Made by a program: the position numbers and the translations under genes | Assembly (NCBI RefSeq): GCF_003369835.1 | Contig: NZ_QPMJ01000002.1 | Coordinates: forward strand, 806,001-870,000 | Direction of reading: 5' to 3' | Source of the DNA: Halorussus rarus | GTDB taxonomy: Archaea; Halobacteriota; Halobacteria; Halobacteriales; Haladaptataceae | Length of the DNA stretch: 64,000 bases | Notes under the pieces: generated by a model | Seen by the model: the letters and a program-made list of their open reading frames with translations, nothing else | Databases searched by the model: none | Told to the model about the DNA's origin: nothing | In this document: positions 21,128 through 54,608 of the stretch, in pieces | Layout of the letters: each line of letters begins with the position of its first letter | Numbering within the stretch: the first letter of the stretch is position 1

Positions 21128-22336
21128 TCACCGCTCGGCGAACACGCCGACGACCAGCCCGGCGAACAGCGCGGCGCCGGCGAGCGCGCTCGCTCGCCCG
21201 ACCAGGACGACCGCCTCCGCCCCGGCCAGGGCGCCGCCGAGTTCCGCGACGAGGCCGGCGCCGACCAGCGCGATCGAGGCCAACGCAGTCCGGTCGGAGG
21301 CCCCGGGGAACGTCCCGACCGTCGGCGGGTAGAACTGGTAGGTCGCGCCGACGATGGTGAGGCCCAGGAACCCGAGGACGTTGAGCCGGAAGTGAGTCTC
21401 GATCAGCTCGAACCCCCTTCCGGCGAACGCGAAGTGAAGCCCGACGGCCACGCCGAGCGCGCCGGCCGCGACCCCCGTCAGGACCGCGTAGAACCCGACC
21501 CGGCGGCGCTCCGACCGGACGAACAGGACGGCGTAGGCCGCCCCGAATCCCAGGACGGCGAGGGCCTCGAGCGCCGCGCCGGCGCGGAACCACGTCCCGC
21601 CGTAGAGGTCGCCCGCGAGCAGCGCCGGGCCGACCGCGCCCGCGGGCAGGACGACCCCGACCAGCGCCCGGGGCGGCGATGCGACGAGAAACCGGGGAAA
21701 CAGCCGGAACCCCACCGCGAAGACGAGGAGCGCGGCCGCGCCCGCGGCCAGCAGGTGGGCCGTCCGCGCGAACCCGAGCGAGGCGAACCCGGGGAGGCCG
21801 AGGGAGGGCGCCGCCGTGGCGTAGGCGCCGGCGAGCAGGTACGCCAGCACGACCGGCACGAAGGCGTTGGCGGCCCGGTCGACCGGCCGGCGCTCCGCGT
21901 TGGCGTCGCTCGTCCCGGTCTCCCGACCGGTGGGGTCGTCCCGGACGGTCCAGGCCAGCGCCGCGACGAAGACGGCGGCGCCGGCGGCCCAGAGGACCGC
22001 GCCGACCCCGGCGGCGAGGTCGGGGACCCCGGCAAGCGGCCCGGCCGCGAGCCCGAGCGCGCCGACCGTCGTGAGGGGGAACTGGACCGCCGGCGCGCGC
22101 GGGACAGCGAGCGACCGGTCGAAGTACGACGGCACCAGCGAGTAGGCCTTCCCGAAGACGGCGTGGAGCACGAACCCGTGGACCGCCAGCGCGACCCGGG
22201 TCTGGCGGGGGACCGCCGCGGCGCTCGTCGTCCCGGAGACGGTCGCGGCCAGCGCCGCTATCTGCCAGGCGACCAGGAAGAGCGCGCTCGCGGCGACGAA
22301 CCGCCGCGCCCACCGGGTCACTGCGCCCGCGCCCAT
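21128..22336 (-). CDS. Polytopic membrane protein with heme-copper-oxidase-like His motifs
   Basis: 402 residues, about 11-12 helices. Three helices repeat the pattern His...Gly...Gly-x-x-[YF]-x-x-x-Pro: HGFVLHAVFGKAYSLVP (53-69), HLLAAGAAALLVFAVGFRLFP (about 190-210), and HFRLNVLGFLGLTIVGATYQFYP (about 316-338). This is the style of cytochrome-oxidase-subunit-I-like and NnrS-like proteins, where such His residues bind heme or copper. Not all six ligands of a real oxidase are visible, so an NnrS-like or quinol/NO-related sensor or carrier is more likely. It begins 2 nt after the stop of the MoaD-like CC-tail gene, so the two are one transcript. Confidence 0.65.
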   Translation of the reverse strand: MGAGAVTRWARRFVAASALFLVAWQIAALAATVSGTTSAAAVPRQTRVALAVHGFVLHAVFGKAYSLVPSYFDRSLAVPRAPAVQFPLTTVGALGLAAGPLAGVPDLAAGVGAVLWAAGAAVFVAALAWTVRDDPTGRETGTSDANAERRPVDRAANAFVPVVLAYLLAGAYATAAPSLGLPGFASLGFARTAHLLAAGAAALLVFAVGFRLFPRFLVASPPRALVGVVLPAGAVGPALLAGDLYGGTWFRAGAALEALAVLGFGAAYAVLFVRSERRRVGFYAVLTGVAAGALGVAVGLHFAFAGRGFELIETHFRLNVLGFLGLTIVGATYQFYPPTVGTFPGASDRTALASIALVGAGLVAELGGALAGAEAVVLVGRASALAGAALFAGLVVGVFAER

Positions 22337-22337
22337 C

Positions 22338-22742
22338 TCAGCAGCAGAAGATGAACGGGTACATCAGCGAGACCCGGTCGCCGTCGCGGAGTTCCGTGTC
22401 GAGACCGTCTAAGTGCTCGTTGAACTGGCCGTCGACCGCGACCCGGGCGTACGTCCGGGTCTGTTCGCCCTCCGGGTTCTTGGCCCATTTGCCCGGGAGT
22501 TCCTCGGGCGGTTCGGCCCACCCGCGGGTAGTCGCCTCGTCCTCGGTCTCGGCGATGAGCAGGTCGGCCACGTCGTACTCGGCGAAGAACGCGTCGAGGA
22601 ACGCCCGGAGCGTGGTCCCCTCGAAGGTGAACTCCTGGGTCGGCTCCCCGACCGCGGTCCGGACGTGACCGGTGCACCTGACCTCGACCGTGGTCTCGGA
22701 CTGGCGACCGCTCGGCTCGGCGCCTCTCGCAGTGGTGTCCAT
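22338..22742 (-). CDS. Beta-grasp MoaD/ThiS-like protein with C-terminal CC
   Basis: 134 residues from the ATG at 22742. After an acidic lead-in comes a MoaD/ubiquitin-like region: VEVRCTGHVRTAVGEPTQEF, LRAFLDAFFAEYDVADLL, then YARVAVDGQFNEHLDGLDTELRDGDRVSLMYPFIFCC. The strand-Asp-Gly-Asp-Arg-Val-hydrophobic ending is exactly where MoaD/SAMP proteins have their Gly-Gly tail, but here the last residues are FCC. An ATG 54 nt upstream (22796) would place the palindromic operator inside the gene, so the downstream start is preferred. It is co-transcribed with the heme-copper-like membrane protein. Function unknown; a metal- or thiol-linked role is possible. Confidence 0.65.
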   Translation of the reverse strand: MDTTARGAEPSGRQSETTVEVRCTGHVRTAVGEPTQEFTFEGTTLRAFLDAFFAEYDVADLLIAETEDEATTRGWAEPPEELPGKWAKNPEGEQTRTYARVAVDGQFNEHLDGLDTELRDGDRVSLMYPFIFCC

Positions 22743-22775: not shown

Positions 22776-22793
22776 TGTTCCGAACATGTTCGG
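22776..22793. promoter_or_regulatory. Overlapping palindromic operator
   Basis: TGTTCCGAACATGTTCGG contains two overlapping palindromes: TGTTC-C-GAACA (22776-22786) and CCGAACATGTTCGG (22780-22793). It ends 33-50 nt upstream of the CC-tail gene start on the minus strand, where a leaderless promoter would place it near -40, and about 90 nt upstream of the divergent gene at 22884. Half-sites resemble CGAAC/GTTCG elements I recall for the haloarchaeal nitrate regulator NarO, but spacing is 2 instead of 4. Confidence 0.45.
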
Positions 22794-22883
22794 CAAGTTC
22801 CGGTCGAGCGAGTGATGCGGTCGGTCCGGGTCGCGGGAGACCGCGACCGTAGGTATTTGGGCCGCGACGGCAAAGGCCCGGGC

Positions 22884-23267
22884 ATGGACGAGATCTCACT
22901 GACGGTGCCCGACCCCATCGCGGAATCGCTGCCGGCCGACGGCGACGACGCCGCCCGCGACATGGAGCGGGCGGTCCAGGGCTGGGAGCGCCGGCTCAAC
23001 CGCGCGTTCGAGGAGGCCGAGAGCGACGACGCCGCCGCGGGCGCGGTGGTCGACGCCCTCGAGCGCTTCGAGGACCGGTGGGAGCAGTACGACGACTTCG
23101 TGGCCGAACTCCGCGCCTGGGGCCAGTCGCCCATCTACGCGATGGCGTGGCGCGACCTGATGGGTGCGCTGATGGGCCAACTGTACGACCACGAGGACCT
23201 CGGCGAGCGCATCGACCGCGAGCGCCACGCCCGCATCGTGAGCGACGGCATCCGTCCGGGCCGGTAG
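22884..23267 (+). CDS. Haloarchaeal hypothetical protein
   Basis: 127 residues, acidic, mostly helical. MDEISLTVPDPIAESLPADGDD opens like many haloarchaeal orphan proteins. No membrane segment or metal motif is seen. A TATA-like stretch (about 22850-22857, GTATTTG) fits a leaderless start at the ATG of 22884. Family not recognised. Confidence 0.65.
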   Translation: MDEISLTVPDPIAESLPADGDDAARDMERAVQGWERRLNRAFEEAESDDAAAGAVVDALERFEDRWEQYDDFVAELRAWGQSPIYAMAWRDLMGALMGQLYDHEDLGERIDRERHARIVSDGIRPGR

Positions 23268-23790: not shown

Positions 23791-24099
23791 GTGACGCTCG
23801 AACTTCGCTTCTTCGCCAACTTCCGGGAGGCGGTCGGCCAGAAGACCCTCGAACGCGACTACCCCGACGGGACCACGGTCGGCGAGGTGCTGACCGACCT
23901 CCGCGAGGAGTACGACCTCGACGTCCTCGAGGACGGCGACATCCGGCCCCAGCTGTCGGTGATGAAGAACGGCAAGGACGTGGTCCACATCGACGGCCGG
24001 GACACTCCCCTCGACGACGGCGACACGCTCAGCGTCTTCCCGCCGGTCGCGGGCGGCGCGGGCGACCAGGCGACGGGGACGGTAGAGACGAATCGATGA
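23791..24099 (+). CDS. SAMP3/MoaD-like ubiquitin-like protein with tail beyond GG
   Basis: 102 residues. VTLELRFFANFREAVGQKTL, QLSVMKNGKDVVHIDG and DGDTLSVFPPVAGG closely resemble Haloferax SAMP3 as I remember it. SAMPs are beta-grasp proteins attached to lysines, or used as sulfur carriers for tRNA and molybdopterin, through a C-terminal Gly-Gly. Here GG is at 88-89 and is followed by 13 more residues (AGDQATGTVETNR), so a protease would have to trim it, or it acts uncleaved. The stop codon overlaps the next start as ATGA, so translation is coupled. E1-type UbaA is not in the window. Confidence 0.8.
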   Translation: MTLELRFFANFREAVGQKTLERDYPDGTTVGEVLTDLREEYDLDVLEDGDIRPQLSVMKNGKDVVHIDGRDTPLDDGDTLSVFPPVAGGAGDQATGTVETNR

Positions 24100-24368
24100 C
24101 CCGGGTCGAGAAGTCCTACCGGGGCATCTCCGAGCGTCTGGCCCGCCGGTACCTCTCGAACCTCGGCGGCGAGATCGCGGACGGCGACGAGGAGGGCGAC
24201 GCCGACGTGGTCGCCGACGACTGGCGGGCCAGCGTCTCCTCCGAGAAGGTGAGCGTCGGCCCCTCGGTCACGCTGACCGAGGTCACGGTGGCCTTCGAGG
24301 GCGAGGAGGCGACGCTGGACTCGCTGGTCGAACAGTTCTCCCAGAAGGCGATGCGGGCCGGCGGATGA
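24096..24368 (+). CDS. Stand-alone MoaD-related C-terminal domain protein ending in GG
   Basis: 90 residues. SYRGISERLARRYLSNLGGE, then WRASVSSEKVSVGPSVTLTE and VAFEGEEATLDSLVEQFSQKAMRAGG. This resembles the Pfam domain found at the C-terminus of some fused MoaD-related proteins (for example from Thermus), here as its own gene directly after the SAMP3-like gene with an ATGA overlap. The two genes look like a split form of that fusion. It ends in Gly-Gly, which could itself be a conjugation or thiocarboxylate tail. Probably works with the upstream protein in pterin cofactor or sulfur transfer. Confidence 0.68.
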   Translation: MTRVEKSYRGISERLARRYLSNLGGEIADGDEEGDADVVADDWRASVSSEKVSVGPSVTLTEVTVAFEGEEATLDSLVEQFSQKAMRAGG

Positions 24369-24429: not shown

Positions 24430-24816
24430 ATGACCGAGAACAACCCCATCGAGGGCCAGGTGCTGGTCCTGACCGCGGCCAAGGCGAGCGTGGCCGGCGA
24501 GCGCGTCCCGGACCTGGTGGCCGAGGGGCGCCGGGCCGCGGAGGTCCGGGCCGACGACCTCCGGCGGCGCTACGAGTGCGTCCACGAGGACGACGTCCGG
24601 ACCGTGCTGCTCGCGCCCGAGGGGTTCTGGGCCGAGGTGGGTGACGACCTCGGCTGGTCGGAGCGCGAGCGCGAGGCGGTGGCCCGCGCGAACGCCGAGC
24701 AACTGCTCCGGGTCGGCCGGCGCGAGGACCGCCGCGAGGAGTTCGAGTCCGCGCTCGAACTGCGCGATGCGGTCGTCGTCGGGAGCGACCGCGAGAGAGA
24801 AGAGCAGAGTCGGTGA
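24430..24816 (+). CDS. Haloarchaeal hypothetical protein
   Basis: 128 residues, charged and helical. MTENNPIEGQVLVLTAAKASVAGERVPDLVAEG starts like a conserved haloarchaeal family, with a middle Glu/Arg-rich stretch (HEDDVRTVLLAPEGFWAEV). No known motif. 61 nt after the GG-tail gene on the same strand, so it may be the last gene of that transcript. Convergent with the PLP gene (20 nt). Confidence 0.6.
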   Translation: MTENNPIEGQVLVLTAAKASVAGERVPDLVAEGRRAAEVRADDLRRRYECVHEDDVRTVLLAPEGFWAEVGDDLGWSEREREAVARANAEQLLRVGRREDRREEFESALELRDAVVVGSDREREEQSR

Positions 24817-27406: not shown

Positions 27407-29338
27407 TCAGTCGTCGCCGGAGGCGGCCGCGCCGCCGGAGCTCACGCCGGTTCCGGGGCCGGCGTCGATGCCGAGCTCCTCGAGCTTCTCGTCGGGGACG
27501 ACGCCGTCCTCCCAGCCGCGGACCTCGTAGTACTCCTCCTTGAGCTGGTCGAGCTCGACGAGCTGGCCCTCCGAGCCGCCCTGGCCCGGGATGGCCTTCT
27601 CGTCGCCCTCGACGAACCGGGCGGGCAGGTCGTCGTCGCTGCCGTCGAAGCCAGCGAGGTTGTTGTAGTAGCGCTCGAGGTTGTAGATGCGCTCGCCGGC
27701 CTCGAGCAGCTCGTCCTCCGAGAGGTCGAGCCCGGTCATGCCGTTGTACTGCATGATGTACTCCTCGATGCCCTCCGCGAAGGCGTTGAACTTGCAGATG
27801 TCGAACGAGTCGCTGATGGCGTGGAGGTCCTGGAACGTCGCACAGAGCTCGCCCTTCCCCTCGGGCTCCTGGGGGTCGACCTTCTCCGGAATGCCCAGAA
27901 TCTCGGCCGCCGGGGTGTACCCCCGGAGGTGGCAGGCGCCGCGGTTCGAGGTGGCGTAGCCGATGGCCATCCCCTTCATCGAGCGGGGGTCGTAGGCGGC
28001 CATGGTCTGGCCCTTCACGTCGAGGGACATGTCGGCGTCGCCCAGCTCCTCGGCGGCCCGCATCGAGCCCTCGGCCAGCAGGTCGGCCAGGTCGTCCTCG
28101 CGGTTGGCGACCCGCTCGATCATCTCGATCATGGTGTCGGCGTCGCCCCAGTCGAGCCCCTCGTCGAGGCGGCCCTCCTCGGAGGCCTCCATCGCCATGG
28201 CCATCGTGTTGCCCATGTCGATGGTGTCGACGCCCATGTCGTTGCACCGGTCGATCATCATCGCGATCTTGTCCCGGTCGTCGTTCATCGAGTTCGGGCC
28301 GAGCGCCCACGCCGACTCGTACTCGTAGGACTCCATCCGGATGTTGTGGTCCTCGCCCTTGTGGCGGACGTTGACCTCGACCTCCTTCTTGCACGCGACC
28401 GGGCAGGAGTGGCAGGTCGGCTCGTCGACCAGAATGTTCTCACGGACGTTCTCGCCGGAGACGTTCTCGGCGTCGATGTTGGGCTCGCTGGGGTCCTCCT
28501 CGGCCTCGCTGTGGGTTGAGGTGTTCCTCGCGTTCCGGGTCGGCAGGCCGTCCATCTCCTCGGTGAGGTTCATCAGGACGTTCGTGCCGTACATCGAGAG
28601 GCCGCCCTCGTTCGGGGCGGTGACGTCCGACTCCTGGATGACCTGCATCGCCTGCTTGTGGCCCTCCTGGAACGTCTCCTGGTCGGCGGGCTTGGGCATC
28701 TTGGTCGAGGACTTCACGACGACGGCCTTGAGGTTCTTCGAGCCCATGACGGCGCCGGTGCCGCCCCGGCCCGACGCCCGGTCGTCCTCGTTCATGATGC
28801 AGGCGTACCGCACCTGGTTCTCCCCGCCCGGCCCGATGGCCATCACCGAGAGGTTCTTCCCCACCTCACCGTCGACCTCGTCGCCGAGCTCCTCGATGGT
28901 GTCGTGGACGCCCCATCCCCACACGTGGGAGGCGTCGCGGAGTTCGACCTCGCCGTCCTCCACGACGGCGTAGACGGGCTCCTCGGCCTTCCCCTCGAAG
29001 AGGAGGCCGTCGAAGCCTGCCCACTTGAGTCGCGCCCCCGACCACCCGCCGTGGTGGGAGTCGGTGACGGTGTCGGTGAGCGGCGACTTGGTGCAGACCG
29101 CGATCCGGCCGCTCATTACGGTCTGGGTCCCCGTCAGCGGCCCGTTCATGAACGCCAGCAGGTTGTCCGGGCCGAGCGGGTCGACGTCCGGTCCGTTGTC
29201 GAACACGTACTTCACGCCGAGGCCGCGCGCGCCGATGTACTTCTTGGCGTCCTCGTCGTCGATGCTCTCGTAGTCTACCTTGTCGTCACCGAGGTCGATC
29301 CGGGCGACGTGGTCTTGAAATCCGCCGAGGTCAGTCAT
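27407..29338 (-). CDS. aor: Tungsten-dependent aldehyde ferredoxin oxidoreductase
   Basis: 643 residues, family length. The N-terminal pterin domain (YIGARGLGVKYVF, SGRIAVCTKSPLTDTVTDSHHGGWSGARLKWAGFDGLLFEG, then GGENQVRYACIMNEDDRASGRGGTGAVMGSKNLKAVVVK) and the iron-sulfur cysteines THSCPVACKKE (CxxxC type, about 311-321) plus a later Cys at CKFNAF are typical. The enzyme oxidises aldehydes, passing electrons to ferredoxin through a 4Fe-4S cluster and a bis-pterin tungsten site in the cytosol. Two MoaD-like genes for pterin or sulfur chemistry lie at 22-24 kb. C-terminal Gly/Ser/Ala tail. No neighbour gene on the transcript. Substrate not predictable. Confidence 0.92.
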   Translation of the reverse strand: MTDLGGFQDHVARIDLGDDKVDYESIDDEDAKKYIGARGLGVKYVFDNGPDVDPLGPDNLLAFMNGPLTGTQTVMSGRIAVCTKSPLTDTVTDSHHGGWSGARLKWAGFDGLLFEGKAEEPVYAVVEDGEVELRDASHVWGWGVHDTIEELGDEVDGEVGKNLSVMAIGPGGENQVRYACIMNEDDRASGRGGTGAVMGSKNLKAVVVKSSTKMPKPADQETFQEGHKQAMQVIQESDVTAPNEGGLSMYGTNVLMNLTEEMDGLPTRNARNTSTHSEAEEDPSEPNIDAENVSGENVRENILVDEPTCHSCPVACKKEVEVNVRHKGEDHNIRMESYEYESAWALGPNSMNDDRDKIAMMIDRCNDMGVDTIDMGNTMAMAMEASEEGRLDEGLDWGDADTMIEMIERVANREDDLADLLAEGSMRAAEELGDADMSLDVKGQTMAAYDPRSMKGMAIGYATSNRGACHLRGYTPAAEILGIPEKVDPQEPEGKGELCATFQDLHAISDSFDICKFNAFAEGIEEYIMQYNGMTGLDLSEDELLEAGERIYNLERYYNNLAGFDGSDDDLPARFVEGDEKAIPGQGGSEGQLVELDQLKEEYYEVRGWEDGVVPDEKLEELGIDAGPGTGVSSGGAAASGDD

Positions 29339-52916: not shown

Positions 52917-53083
52917 GGGGACCACGGTCGAACGTGTTCGCCAAGATGTATAAGAATCCCAATCAGTTCTCAGCGACTGAAAACGATGCCGACCGCCATT
53001 CGGTCCGGACGGTGACGACCGGCGGCACTTCGGCGGTACGACCGGAAAATCTCCGCGGAGTGCAACCGACGACGCGCCCGATA

Positions 53084-54010
53084 TCACCGCGCGGGCGGCT
53101 CGTCGCCGACCAGTTCGTCGACCGTCTCGTCGGCCTTCCACTCGCCGAGCTCCTTCGGGTCGATGTGGACGAACACGTCGTCGACCTCGTCGAGCTCCCG
53201 GATCGACTCCACCACGTCGGTCTCGATGTCGTGGGCCTCGAACAGGGTGCGGTCGCCCTCGACCTCGATGTGGAGGCTCACGTCGATCTCCGGGCCGACG
53301 TAGTGGGCGATGACGTCGTGGGCGCCCTCGACGTCGGGGTGGTCGAGCGCGCGACGGACGATCTCGGCCCGGAGCCCCTCCGGCGGGGCGCTCCCGACCA
53401 GGTAGTCGACGTTGTCCTGGACGATCTCGTAGCCGGTGTAGAGGATGCCGACCGAGACGACGCCCGCGGCGATGGGATCGAGCACCGGCAGGCCCACGCC
53501 CGACCCGAGGACGCCGACCAGCGCCGCGGCCGCGGTCAGGATGTCGTTGCGGTTGTCGAGCGCGGTGGCGGTCAGCGCCGGCGAGAGCGTCCGGTCGGCC
53601 GCCCGCAGGCAGTACCGGTAGAGGCCGAACTTCACGCCCGCGGTGGCGACCAGCACGGCGACGGCGGCCGGGGAGACGCCCGCGGCCGCCACATCGCCCG
53701 AGAGCACCGAAGTGGTCGCCCGCCAGAGCACCGCCCCGCCCGCCGCGAACACGCCCACGGCGATGAACAGCGAGACGAACGGCTCGATGCGCTCGTGGCC
53801 GTGCGGGTGGCTGAAGTCGGGCGGCCGAGTCGTCAGGTAGAGGCCCGCGAGGATGACGACGCTGTAGGCGACGTCGGCGAGGCTGTTGACCGCCTCGGAG
53901 CCGACCGCGAGGCTGCCGGTCGTCCACCAGACGGCGCCCTTGGCGACCACCAGCAGCACGTTGACCGCCAGAACGACCGCACCGACCCGGCGGACCGCGC
54001 GTTTGCTCAT
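53084..54010 (-). CDS. Cation diffusion facilitator (metal efflux)
   Basis: 308 residues. Six-helix CDF domain with GSLAVGSEAVNSLADVAYSV and ATALDNRNDILTAAAALVG carrying the Asp/Asn metal ligands, plus a C-terminal cytoplasmic domain (DVSLHIEVEGDRTLFEAHDIET). Expected to export a divalent cation such as Zn, Co or Mn; which one is unclear. DFSHPHGHERIEPFVSLFIA is a His-rich loop. ATG at 54010 (MSKRAVRRVGAV) chosen; the frame is open further upstream. Confidence 0.85.
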   Translation of the reverse strand: MSKRAVRRVGAVVLAVNVLLVVAKGAVWWTTGSLAVGSEAVNSLADVAYSVVILAGLYLTTRPPDFSHPHGHERIEPFVSLFIAVGVFAAGGAVLWRATTSVLSGDVAAAGVSPAAVAVLVATAGVKFGLYRYCLRAADRTLSPALTATALDNRNDILTAAAALVGVLGSGVGLPVLDPIAAGVVSVGILYTGYEIVQDNVDYLVGSAPPEGLRAEIVRRALDHPDVEGAHDVIAHYVGPEIDVSLHIEVEGDRTLFEAHDIETDVVESIRELDEVDDVFVHIDPKELGEWKADETVDELVGDEPPAR

Positions 54011-54065
54011 CGCGTAGGTGTTCGACTTCCGGGATGAAGGCAGTGTCGTTCGCGGACGGGGAAGG

Positions 54066-54608
54066 TCAGAACCGGAGGCGAACCGCGCCGTCCCCGTCGT
54101 CCGGAATCTCCGCACCGTCCTGGTCGGCGAACGCCTCGCGCGTCCGGTCGTACGTCTCGTCGACGGCCTCGACGATGACCTTCGTGTCCGAGATGACCGG
54201 CATGAAGTTGGTGTCGCCCTCCCACCGCGGGACGACGTGGGTGTGGAGGTGGTCGTCGATGGAGCCGCCGGCGCCCCGCCCGAGGTTGAGGCCCGCGTTG
54301 AAGCCGTCGGGCGAGAGCGCCGACTCCAGCGCGTCGAAGGTCCGCTGCTTGAGCCGGGCGTGGTCGAGCAGCGTCTCCTCGGGGAGGTCGCGGTAGTCGC
54401 CGGTGTGTTCGCGGGGGATGACCATCGCGTGACCGGGGTTGTAGGGGTAGTTGTTGAACATGACGAAGGCGCGGTCGCTCCGGGCGACCACGAGGTTCTC
54501 CCGGTCGTCGTCGCGCTCCGGCAGTTCGCAGAAGACGCACCCCTCGACGTCGTCGTCCCCGTCGCGTTCGACCCACTCGATGCGCCACGGCGCGAAGACC
54601 TGGTCCAT
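54066..54608 (-). CDS. HIT-family nucleotide-binding protein
   Basis: 180 residues. Histidine triad HLHTHVVPRW (HxHxH with His nucleophile), NNYPYNPGHAMVIPREHTGDY before it, and an N-terminal zinc-type CVFCEL. Most HIT proteins hydrolyse adenylylated small molecules or nucleotides. Start MDQVFAPWRIEWVERD is the family N-terminus. It lies 55 nt upstream of the CDF transporter start on the same strand. Confidence 0.88.
   Translation of the reverse strand: MDQVFAPWRIEWVERDGDDDVEGCVFCELPERDDDRENLVVARSDRAFVMFNNYPYNPGHAMVIPREHTGDYRDLPEETLLDHARLKQRTFDALESALSPDGFNAGLNLGRGAGGSIDDHLHTHVVPRWEGDTNFMPVISDTKVIVEAVDETYDRTREAFADQDGAEIPDDGDGAVRLRF

Follow-up and report, generated by a model that had tools for sequence, protein, structure and literature searches.

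What can a small protein of the MoaD/SAMP type do when its tail ends in two cysteines and not in the C-terminal Gly-Gly of the MoaD, ThiS and SAMP carriers? This question is raised by one ORF in the window, by which we mean the whole 64,000-nucleotide stretch of haloarchaeal DNA that was analysed. A first-pass annotation had recognised a MoaD/SAMP fold with the ending FCC, and had suggested that the two terminal cysteines bind a metal or form a thiol-linked carrier in place of a thiocarboxylate. The features needed first are the following:

22338..22742, minus strand: MoaD-CC (the name used here), a MoaD/SAMP-like beta-grasp protein of 134 residues with the tail YPFIFCC; based on the ORF, Pfam, homologues, an AlphaFold model and Foldseek
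22338..22346, minus strand: tail codons for Cys133, Cys134 and stop; Cys133 lies at the terminal-Gly position of MoaD and Cys134 is one extra residue, by an extrapolated HMM register
22781..22792, no strand assigned: perfect palindrome CGAACATGTTCG, a motif reported from haloarchaeal denitrification promoters, in the MoaD-CC promoter region before the ATG

Fold and tail of MoaD-CC

The MoaD-CC ORF runs on the minus strand from an ATG at 22742 to a stop codon at 22338-22340, and its product ends in LMYPFIFCC. An alternative upstream TTG start is possible at 22796; the ATG is the likely start, because the palindrome sits at 22781-22792. The MoaD/SAMP fold proposed in the annotation is borne out: Pfam ThiS scores 29 bits with a cut-off of 22.5, the AlphaFold model (with a 90-sequence alignment as input) has a mean pLDDT of 82.8, with values below 50 for the final three residues, and the top Foldseek matches are the SAMP1 homologue 2l52 and HVO_2177 (2m19). 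VIA-align places the model on a Thermus MoaD-related protein (Z 13.1, 1.7 Å over 84 residues), on 2l52 (Z 12.8, 3.4 Å over 96 residues) and on Haloferax SAMP1 (Z 12.2, 2.3 Å over 87 residues). When solved structures were searched by sequence, weak SAMP1/MoaD matches alone were returned (E 0.011 to 0.019), and the two narrower family models stay under their cut-offs, NF041918 (SAMP1) at 22.5 bits with a cut-off of 60 and TIGR01687 (archaeal MoaD) at 29.6 bits with a cut-off of 49.5. MoaD-CC shares with SAMP1 and archaeal MoaD the fold, the second-half motif NG..-G-DT.L.DGD and a proline in the tail, whereas it lacks GG, carries an insertion of about 27 residues and ends one residue later. It is a haloarchaeal beta-grasp (MoaD/SAMP1) paralogue without the E1-activated Gly-Gly end.

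The unusual tail is real. The family of the window has a match in 19 of 28 genomes and all 19 end in CC, which rules out a sequencing error or a frameshift, the concern raised in the annotation, as the source of the tail. In a wider set of 108 distinct homologous ORFs the tail reads [FY]C-x in 98 and CC in 79, and GG closes none (0/108); as 3 of the 108 have their last 60 residues identical to another row, counting by distinct last 60 residues gives 95/105 and 76/105. The individual endings are FCC in 67, YCC in 12, FCL in 8, FCF in 3, YCV in 3, FCV in 2, YCF in 2, FCY in 1 and FRC in 1, with 9 others that are fragments, frameshifted, read-through or broken copies, or tandem paralogues. The penultimate Cys is therefore near-constant, while the final residue may be C, L, V, F or Y. 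The observation of the tail is confirmed, and the interpretation given to it is partly supported: a thiol tail is present and thiocarboxylate chemistry is unlikely, but the vicinal pair varies among relatives, as the annotation had foreseen it might, and is not the conserved element. These frequencies come from the unselected 108-ORF set; the rows of the separate alignments (95 rows; 90-sequence) were ORFs with an [FY][CR]x tail and E <1e-40, so that a Cys133 frequency taken from them is biased by the choice of rows by tail.

The register of the tail was read from profile alignments in a 152-residue numbering, in which Cys133 is residue 151. PF02597 puts residue 147 on model position 72 of 76, TIGR01687 puts residue 147 on 84 of 88, and NF041918 puts residue 146 on 86 of 91; extrapolated without a gap over the last 4-5 residues, all three bring Cys133 onto the last Gly. 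Alignment by hhalign to nine SAMP1 proteins from the loci of MoaD-CC homologues (probability 97.1) ends with F130 on V88 of a 91-residue SAMP1 and, continued without a gap, agrees with the three HMMs. In the structure alignments the aligned ends scatter over residues 130 to 134 and do not settle the register. By the HMMs and hhalign, whose register is extrapolated across the last 3-5 residues, a Cys in place of the terminal Gly with one residue appended describes the change better than a switch from GG to CC.

Some copies depart from this pattern. The second MoaD-CC copies of three tandem pairs (L067 1041-1715, L070 1936-2373, L088 2007-2405) have no tail Cys and end in LLYPFLFAP(RS) or VELVEPLTV. 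L089 (G134:C1:1941566-1941952) is the sole homologue with Arg for Cys133 (FRC), and it also has neither the first-strand Cys nor the promoter palindrome, as if it were decaying.

A metal carrier is the main rival of a persulfide carrier. The terminal thiols, together with the strand-1 Cys/His where present, would hold a soft metal such as Cu(I) or tungsten and hand it to anaerobic respiratory enzymes, for instance to NirK before export, or to AOR. The vicinal cysteines in 79 of the 108 tails speak for it, as do the first-strand motif C-T-G-H, with Cys in 77 and His in 91 of 95 aligned rows (rows chosen for an [FY][CR]x tail), and the tendency of the strand-1 Cys and the last Cys to co-occur among 94 homologues (both in 67, strand-1 alone in 9, last alone in 10, neither in 8; Fisher p 0.003, ignoring kinship), and NirK, halocyanin and COX1-like genes lie near some loci. 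However, one Cys alone is near-invariant: the last Cys stands in 78 of the same 95 tail-selected rows, and the 94 homologues include 9 that miss only the last Cys, 10 that miss only the strand-1 Cys and 8 that miss both. We consider a metal carrier unlikely. An obligate two-Cys metal site, or one that needs the strand-1 Cys too, finds no support, given the variation at those positions; a thiol-linked carrier, also suggested in the annotation, appears from the sequences to fit better.

A lipidated tail can also be imagined. Rab proteins carry CC tails as a lipidation signal, and Halobacteria have diphytanylglyceryl proteins; the hydrophobic tail YPFxFC[CLVFY] would suit a C-terminal signal of this kind. 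Nevertheless, we know of no transferase for such a C-terminal lipidation, and the MoaD-CC tail aligns with a functional MoaD tail. Even with a second CC-ended family reported from Halobacteria, arCOG08988 (PMC2948915), we give this explanation almost no weight.

The CC tail itself is already in print. MoaD-CC is very probably arCOG00539, the Halobacteria beta-grasp family for which Makarova and Koonin (2010) reported the ending CC and, in the sections consulted, gave no function (PMC2948915); both are beta-grasp families of Halobacteria with a CC end. Those sections contain no promoter motif, no AOR dependence and no constancy of the penultimate Cys alone (PMC2948915). A literature search for arCOG00539 found no further paper, and a search that was not exhaustive, on partly accessible texts, found no function in print for the CC-tailed family. 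The family is not named in the portions consulted of PMC11218638, PMC11323500, PMC6365974, PMC11237513, PMC6650914 and PMC8305020, and the word MoaD is absent from the main text of PMC11218638.

Promoter palindrome and gene neighbourhoods

The locus offers two further lines of evidence, the promoter and the neighbours. The latter are:

21128..22336, minus strand: 402-residue protein with several membrane segments, which no Pfam family matched at E ≤1
22884..23267, plus strand: divergent conserved 127-residue protein, family unassigned, which shares the intergenic region and the palindrome with MoaD-CC
23791..24099, plus strand: SAMP1-type Ubl in which 13 further residues come after FPPVAGG, tail GGAGDQATGTVETNR
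24096..24368, plus strand: small protein ending in MRAGG; all 11 clustered relatives end in GG
24430..24816, plus strand: cluster gene for 128 residues; no family scores over its cut-off, and the gene is conserved next to the GG-terminal one
27407..29338, minus strand: AOR-family (tungsten aldehyde:ferredoxin oxidoreductase) gene; PF01314 match G000:C2:833467-834657, E 6.9e-124
52929-52940: second palindrome site of the window, with one mismatch, CGAACGTGTTCG, beside the ORF 53084-54115 on the minus strand

The same 12-mer as CGAACATGTTCG occurs in the nosZ and nor promoters of Haloferax mediterranei, with variants in nirK and nar (PMC10062603). When its first base is altered, the activity of nosp and norp is significantly lower, that of nirp not significantly, and narp is not affected at all (PMC10062603). 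The palindrome has been proposed as the operator of a denitrification regulon and lies in 83 promoter regions of H. mediterranei (PMC10062603); the regulators of haloarchaeal denitrification are described as largely unknown in the parts consulted of PMC10062603 and PMC11218638.

In the 4.37 Mb genome CGAACATGTTCG has 4 perfect sites, of which that before MoaD-CC is one, and 32 sites with at most one mismatch; the reversed control pattern gives 1. With at most one mismatch it lies in the 260 bases before the conserved domain in 88 of 94 MoaD-CC homologues, a set that includes many close relatives, and in the controls it appears in 10 of 94 downstream regions, some of which are promoters of other genes, and in 34 of 1500 random stretches of long loci. 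From these sequences, MoaD-CC is probably induced under denitrification.

The motif is not confined to MoaD-CC. In the same loci it lies near the starts of the divergent gene in 9/13, COX1-like in 9/18, CGCGG in 7/15, HTH_10 in 5/11, halocyanin in 4/7, radical SAM in 5/25, the 210-residue protein in 4/17, NirK in 2/10 and NnrS-like in 1/16. It was found near the starts of none of 13 ACC, 12 AOR, 11 SAMP1, 11 GG-terminal and 8 USP genes of these loci. Because start codons were called mechanically, all these counts, the zeros included, may be too low. For the AOR gene of the window the nearest site of this type has 2 mismatches and lies 483 bases upstream, inside another ORF. The spread over neighbouring families (loci L054-L065, L096-L155) hints at a shared regulon with unnamed members. 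The ORF adjoining CGAACGTGTTCG matches a halocyanin profile built here.

As for the neighbours, MoaD-CC and the 402-residue membrane protein are probably co-translated, because the start of the latter lies only 1 nt past the stop of the former (TGA-G-ATG); from its histidine pattern we take the membrane protein to be NnrS-like. Homologues of the divergent protein lie near MoaD-CC in 15 of 71 loci, and one of them matched nothing in Pfam at E ≤0.01. In the window, the SAMP1-type Ubl continues after FPPVAGG with AGDQATGTVETNR. That of Halorussus aquaticus (L054 5133-5426, minus strand) continues with SDAVTAEG, and the other clustered relatives (10/11) end directly after GG. Judged from sequence, the two extended proteins would need trimming before use. 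The MRAGG protein probably belongs, by our own assignment, to arCOG06308, a TBP-like family with GG ends described by Makarova and Koonin.

Across 71 loci, each taken with about 6-8 kb of flanking sequence and with families named from one member per cluster, two kinds of neighbourhood recur. At least one listed nitrite/NO-type family lies within 7 kb in 37 loci (NirK in 9, the CGCGG rSAM-modified peptide in 17, radical SAM in 21, COX1-like in 18, NnrS-like in 20, the 210-residue protein in 18 and halocyanin in 7), and an AOR/SAMP1-type neighbourhood is present in 15, with AOR itself near in 14. One or the other is found in 47 loci, both in 5 and neither in 24; the window belongs to those with both, as the membrane protein begins 1 base after MoaD-CC ends and the AOR cluster flanks MoaD-CC on the opposite side. 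In Halorussus halophilus, MoaD-CC (annotated as a pterin cluster protein) lies amid nirK, cbb3-type oxidase, halocyanin and radical SAM genes; in Haloprofundus it adjoins CGCGG, with nirK about 4 kb off; and in Halobaculum CBA1158 it is directly upstream of an operon of molybdopterin oxidoreductase, Fe-S subunit and TorD. Among 20 neighbouring genes scanned from 18 loci, the 18 taken from 16 of the 24 loci of neither type are unrelated to Mo/W or sulfur; of the remainder, from L133 and L152, one is a molybdopterin oxidoreductase beside MoaD-CC in L152, and no common theme joins the others. L131, one of the 24, does hold a molybdopterin oxidoreductase.

These data bear on two further explanations. 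First, MoaD-CC may be an NO- or redox-responsive thiol protein, in which Cys133 would be nitrosylated or oxidised and would thereby switch a partner enzyme (AOR, MPT synthase) when NO appears. The denitrification palindrome in 88 of 94 promoters, and also in 19 of the 24 loci of neither type, is in keeping with this, as are the NirK, CGCGG, radical SAM and NnrS-like genes near other loci. However, the motif regulates many kinds of gene, as its distribution in H. mediterranei indicates (PMC10062603), and induction by NO is not the same as sensing NO; we hold this explanation to be improbable. Second, MoaD-CC may be a dead-end MoaD decoy, which docks on MPT synthase or E1 and tunes the supply of Mo/W cofactor, with a structural role for the Cys. 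The core and the tail shape are retained (YPF versus FPP) while GG is lost, and SAMP1 is encoded nearby in 15 of 71 loci. A near-invariant Cys, though, would not be expected to be kept in a decoy, and we regard this as quite improbable.

Distribution and co-occurrence

MoaD-CC was found in 227 of 392 genomes of the order. The family profile gave 29 matches in 246 genomes of the phylum, all inside the order, and no match among the phylum genomes outside it, which number about 203 of the 246 as inferred from row order.

A search for AOR (PF01314) covered 281 genomes out of the 392, namely 141 of the 227 carriers and 140 of the 165 non-carriers. AOR is present in 141/141 carriers and in 55/140 non-carriers. 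The association persists when stratified by genus (chi-square 33.0, p 9e-9; 4 non-carriers left out), and it is weaker once genera with linked AOR and MoaD-CC, judged on one to three loci each, are left out (chi-square 7.0, p 0.008); tests at the level of genomes are not free of shared ancestry. The dependence runs one way: AOR does not need MoaD-CC, being present in 55 genomes of the 140 that lack the latter.

The associations with nitrite/NO-type genes are weaker than that of AOR and non-exclusive. NirK occurs in 143/227 carriers and 56/165 non-carriers (odds ratio 3.3, ignoring kinship), and CGCGG in 176/227 and 66/165. The absence of NirK from 84 of the 227 carriers rejects MoaD-CC as a strict denitrification gene tied to NirK, and it also counts against the metal carrier. 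Likewise, the CGCGG rSAM-modified peptide is rejected as an obligate partner, being absent in 51 of the 227. NarG-like genes do not differ significantly (13/61 carriers versus 6/60 non-carriers); TIGR01580 exceeds its cut-off in 0/121 genomes and is a poor probe here.

A possible thiol-arm carrier

A MoaD body, a tail of MoaD-like shape, a thiol at the place of the thiocarboxylate, a nitrogen-oxide-type motif and the one-way co-occurrence with AOR together suggest a thiol-arm carrier for W/Mo-pterin enzymes. Our tentative preference, held with less than even confidence, is that MoaD-CC is a thiol-arm relative of MoaD, probably denitrification-induced, which would act as a persulfide carrier for these enzymes; its chemistry is inferred. 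With Cys at the former terminal Gly and one further residue (C, L, V, F or Y) behind it, the Cys133 thiol would stand on the flexible arm by which MoaD enters its partner's active site. It may carry sulfur as a persulfide, putatively received from a cysteine desulfurase or a different carrier with no need of adenylation. The sulfur would be delivered in the making or repair of tungsten/molybdenum-pterin enzymes, with the AOR family as the first candidate acceptor. The protein would probably be made on the switch to nitrogen-oxide respiration, by way of CGAACATGTTCG.

There is a working precedent for this reading in DsrC, in which the persulfide forms only on the penultimate Cys, and the other Cys is often Ala, Ser or Thr in homologues (PMC3397948). 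In DsrC/TusE the penultimate Cys, borne on a flexible arm at the C-terminus, is strictly conserved (PMC3397948), and in MoaD-CC it is nearly so. The likeness is an analogy only, with no sign of the DsrC fold: DsrC is neither among the Pfam matches of MoaD-CC at E up to 1 nor among the fold matches listed. MoaD-type proteins in the service of tungsten enzymes have been described elsewhere. UblB and UblC of Thermococcus kodakarensis are MoaD-type Ubls that serve the tungsten cofactor and, unlike MoaD-CC, end in di-glycine (PMC11323500). The bacterial AOR operon of Aromatoleum holds the MoaD-like aorD and aorE, whose products are MoaD-type with a suspected tungsten-enzyme role, as we suggest for MoaD-CC (PMC6365974).

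Several observations stand against the thiol-arm carrier. The theme is missing from 24 of the 71 loci, AOR genomes without the gene exist, and the palindrome is missing before AOR and SAMP1; even the neighbouring NirK genes show it in just 2 of 10 with mechanical start calls. The adjoining SAMP1 could already supply sulfur, and the second copies of the tandem paralogues L067, L070 and L088 have lost the Cys. A more specific form of the proposal seems to us rather doubtful: the E1-made thiocarboxylate would have been swapped for a Cys persulfide at the same spatial point, so that the MoaD body would bear a DsrC-like sulfur arm independent of E1, which nitrogen oxides turn on and which is reserved for the tungsten/molybdenum-pterin enzymes of haloarchaea.

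New here, beyond both the printed record and the first-pass annotation, are the conserved promoter palindrome, the one-way co-occurrence with AOR, and the nitrite/NO or AOR-SAMP1 neighbourhoods of the relatives. Because the co-occurrence is one-way and the operator-like motif is conserved, the proposal is testable in genetically tractable haloarchaea. If true, MoaD-CC would exemplify in nature the move of a ubiquitin-fold carrier from acyl to thiol chemistry at its C-terminus, and the making of tungsten/molybdenum enzymes in haloarchaea would be tied to nitrogen-oxide respiration.
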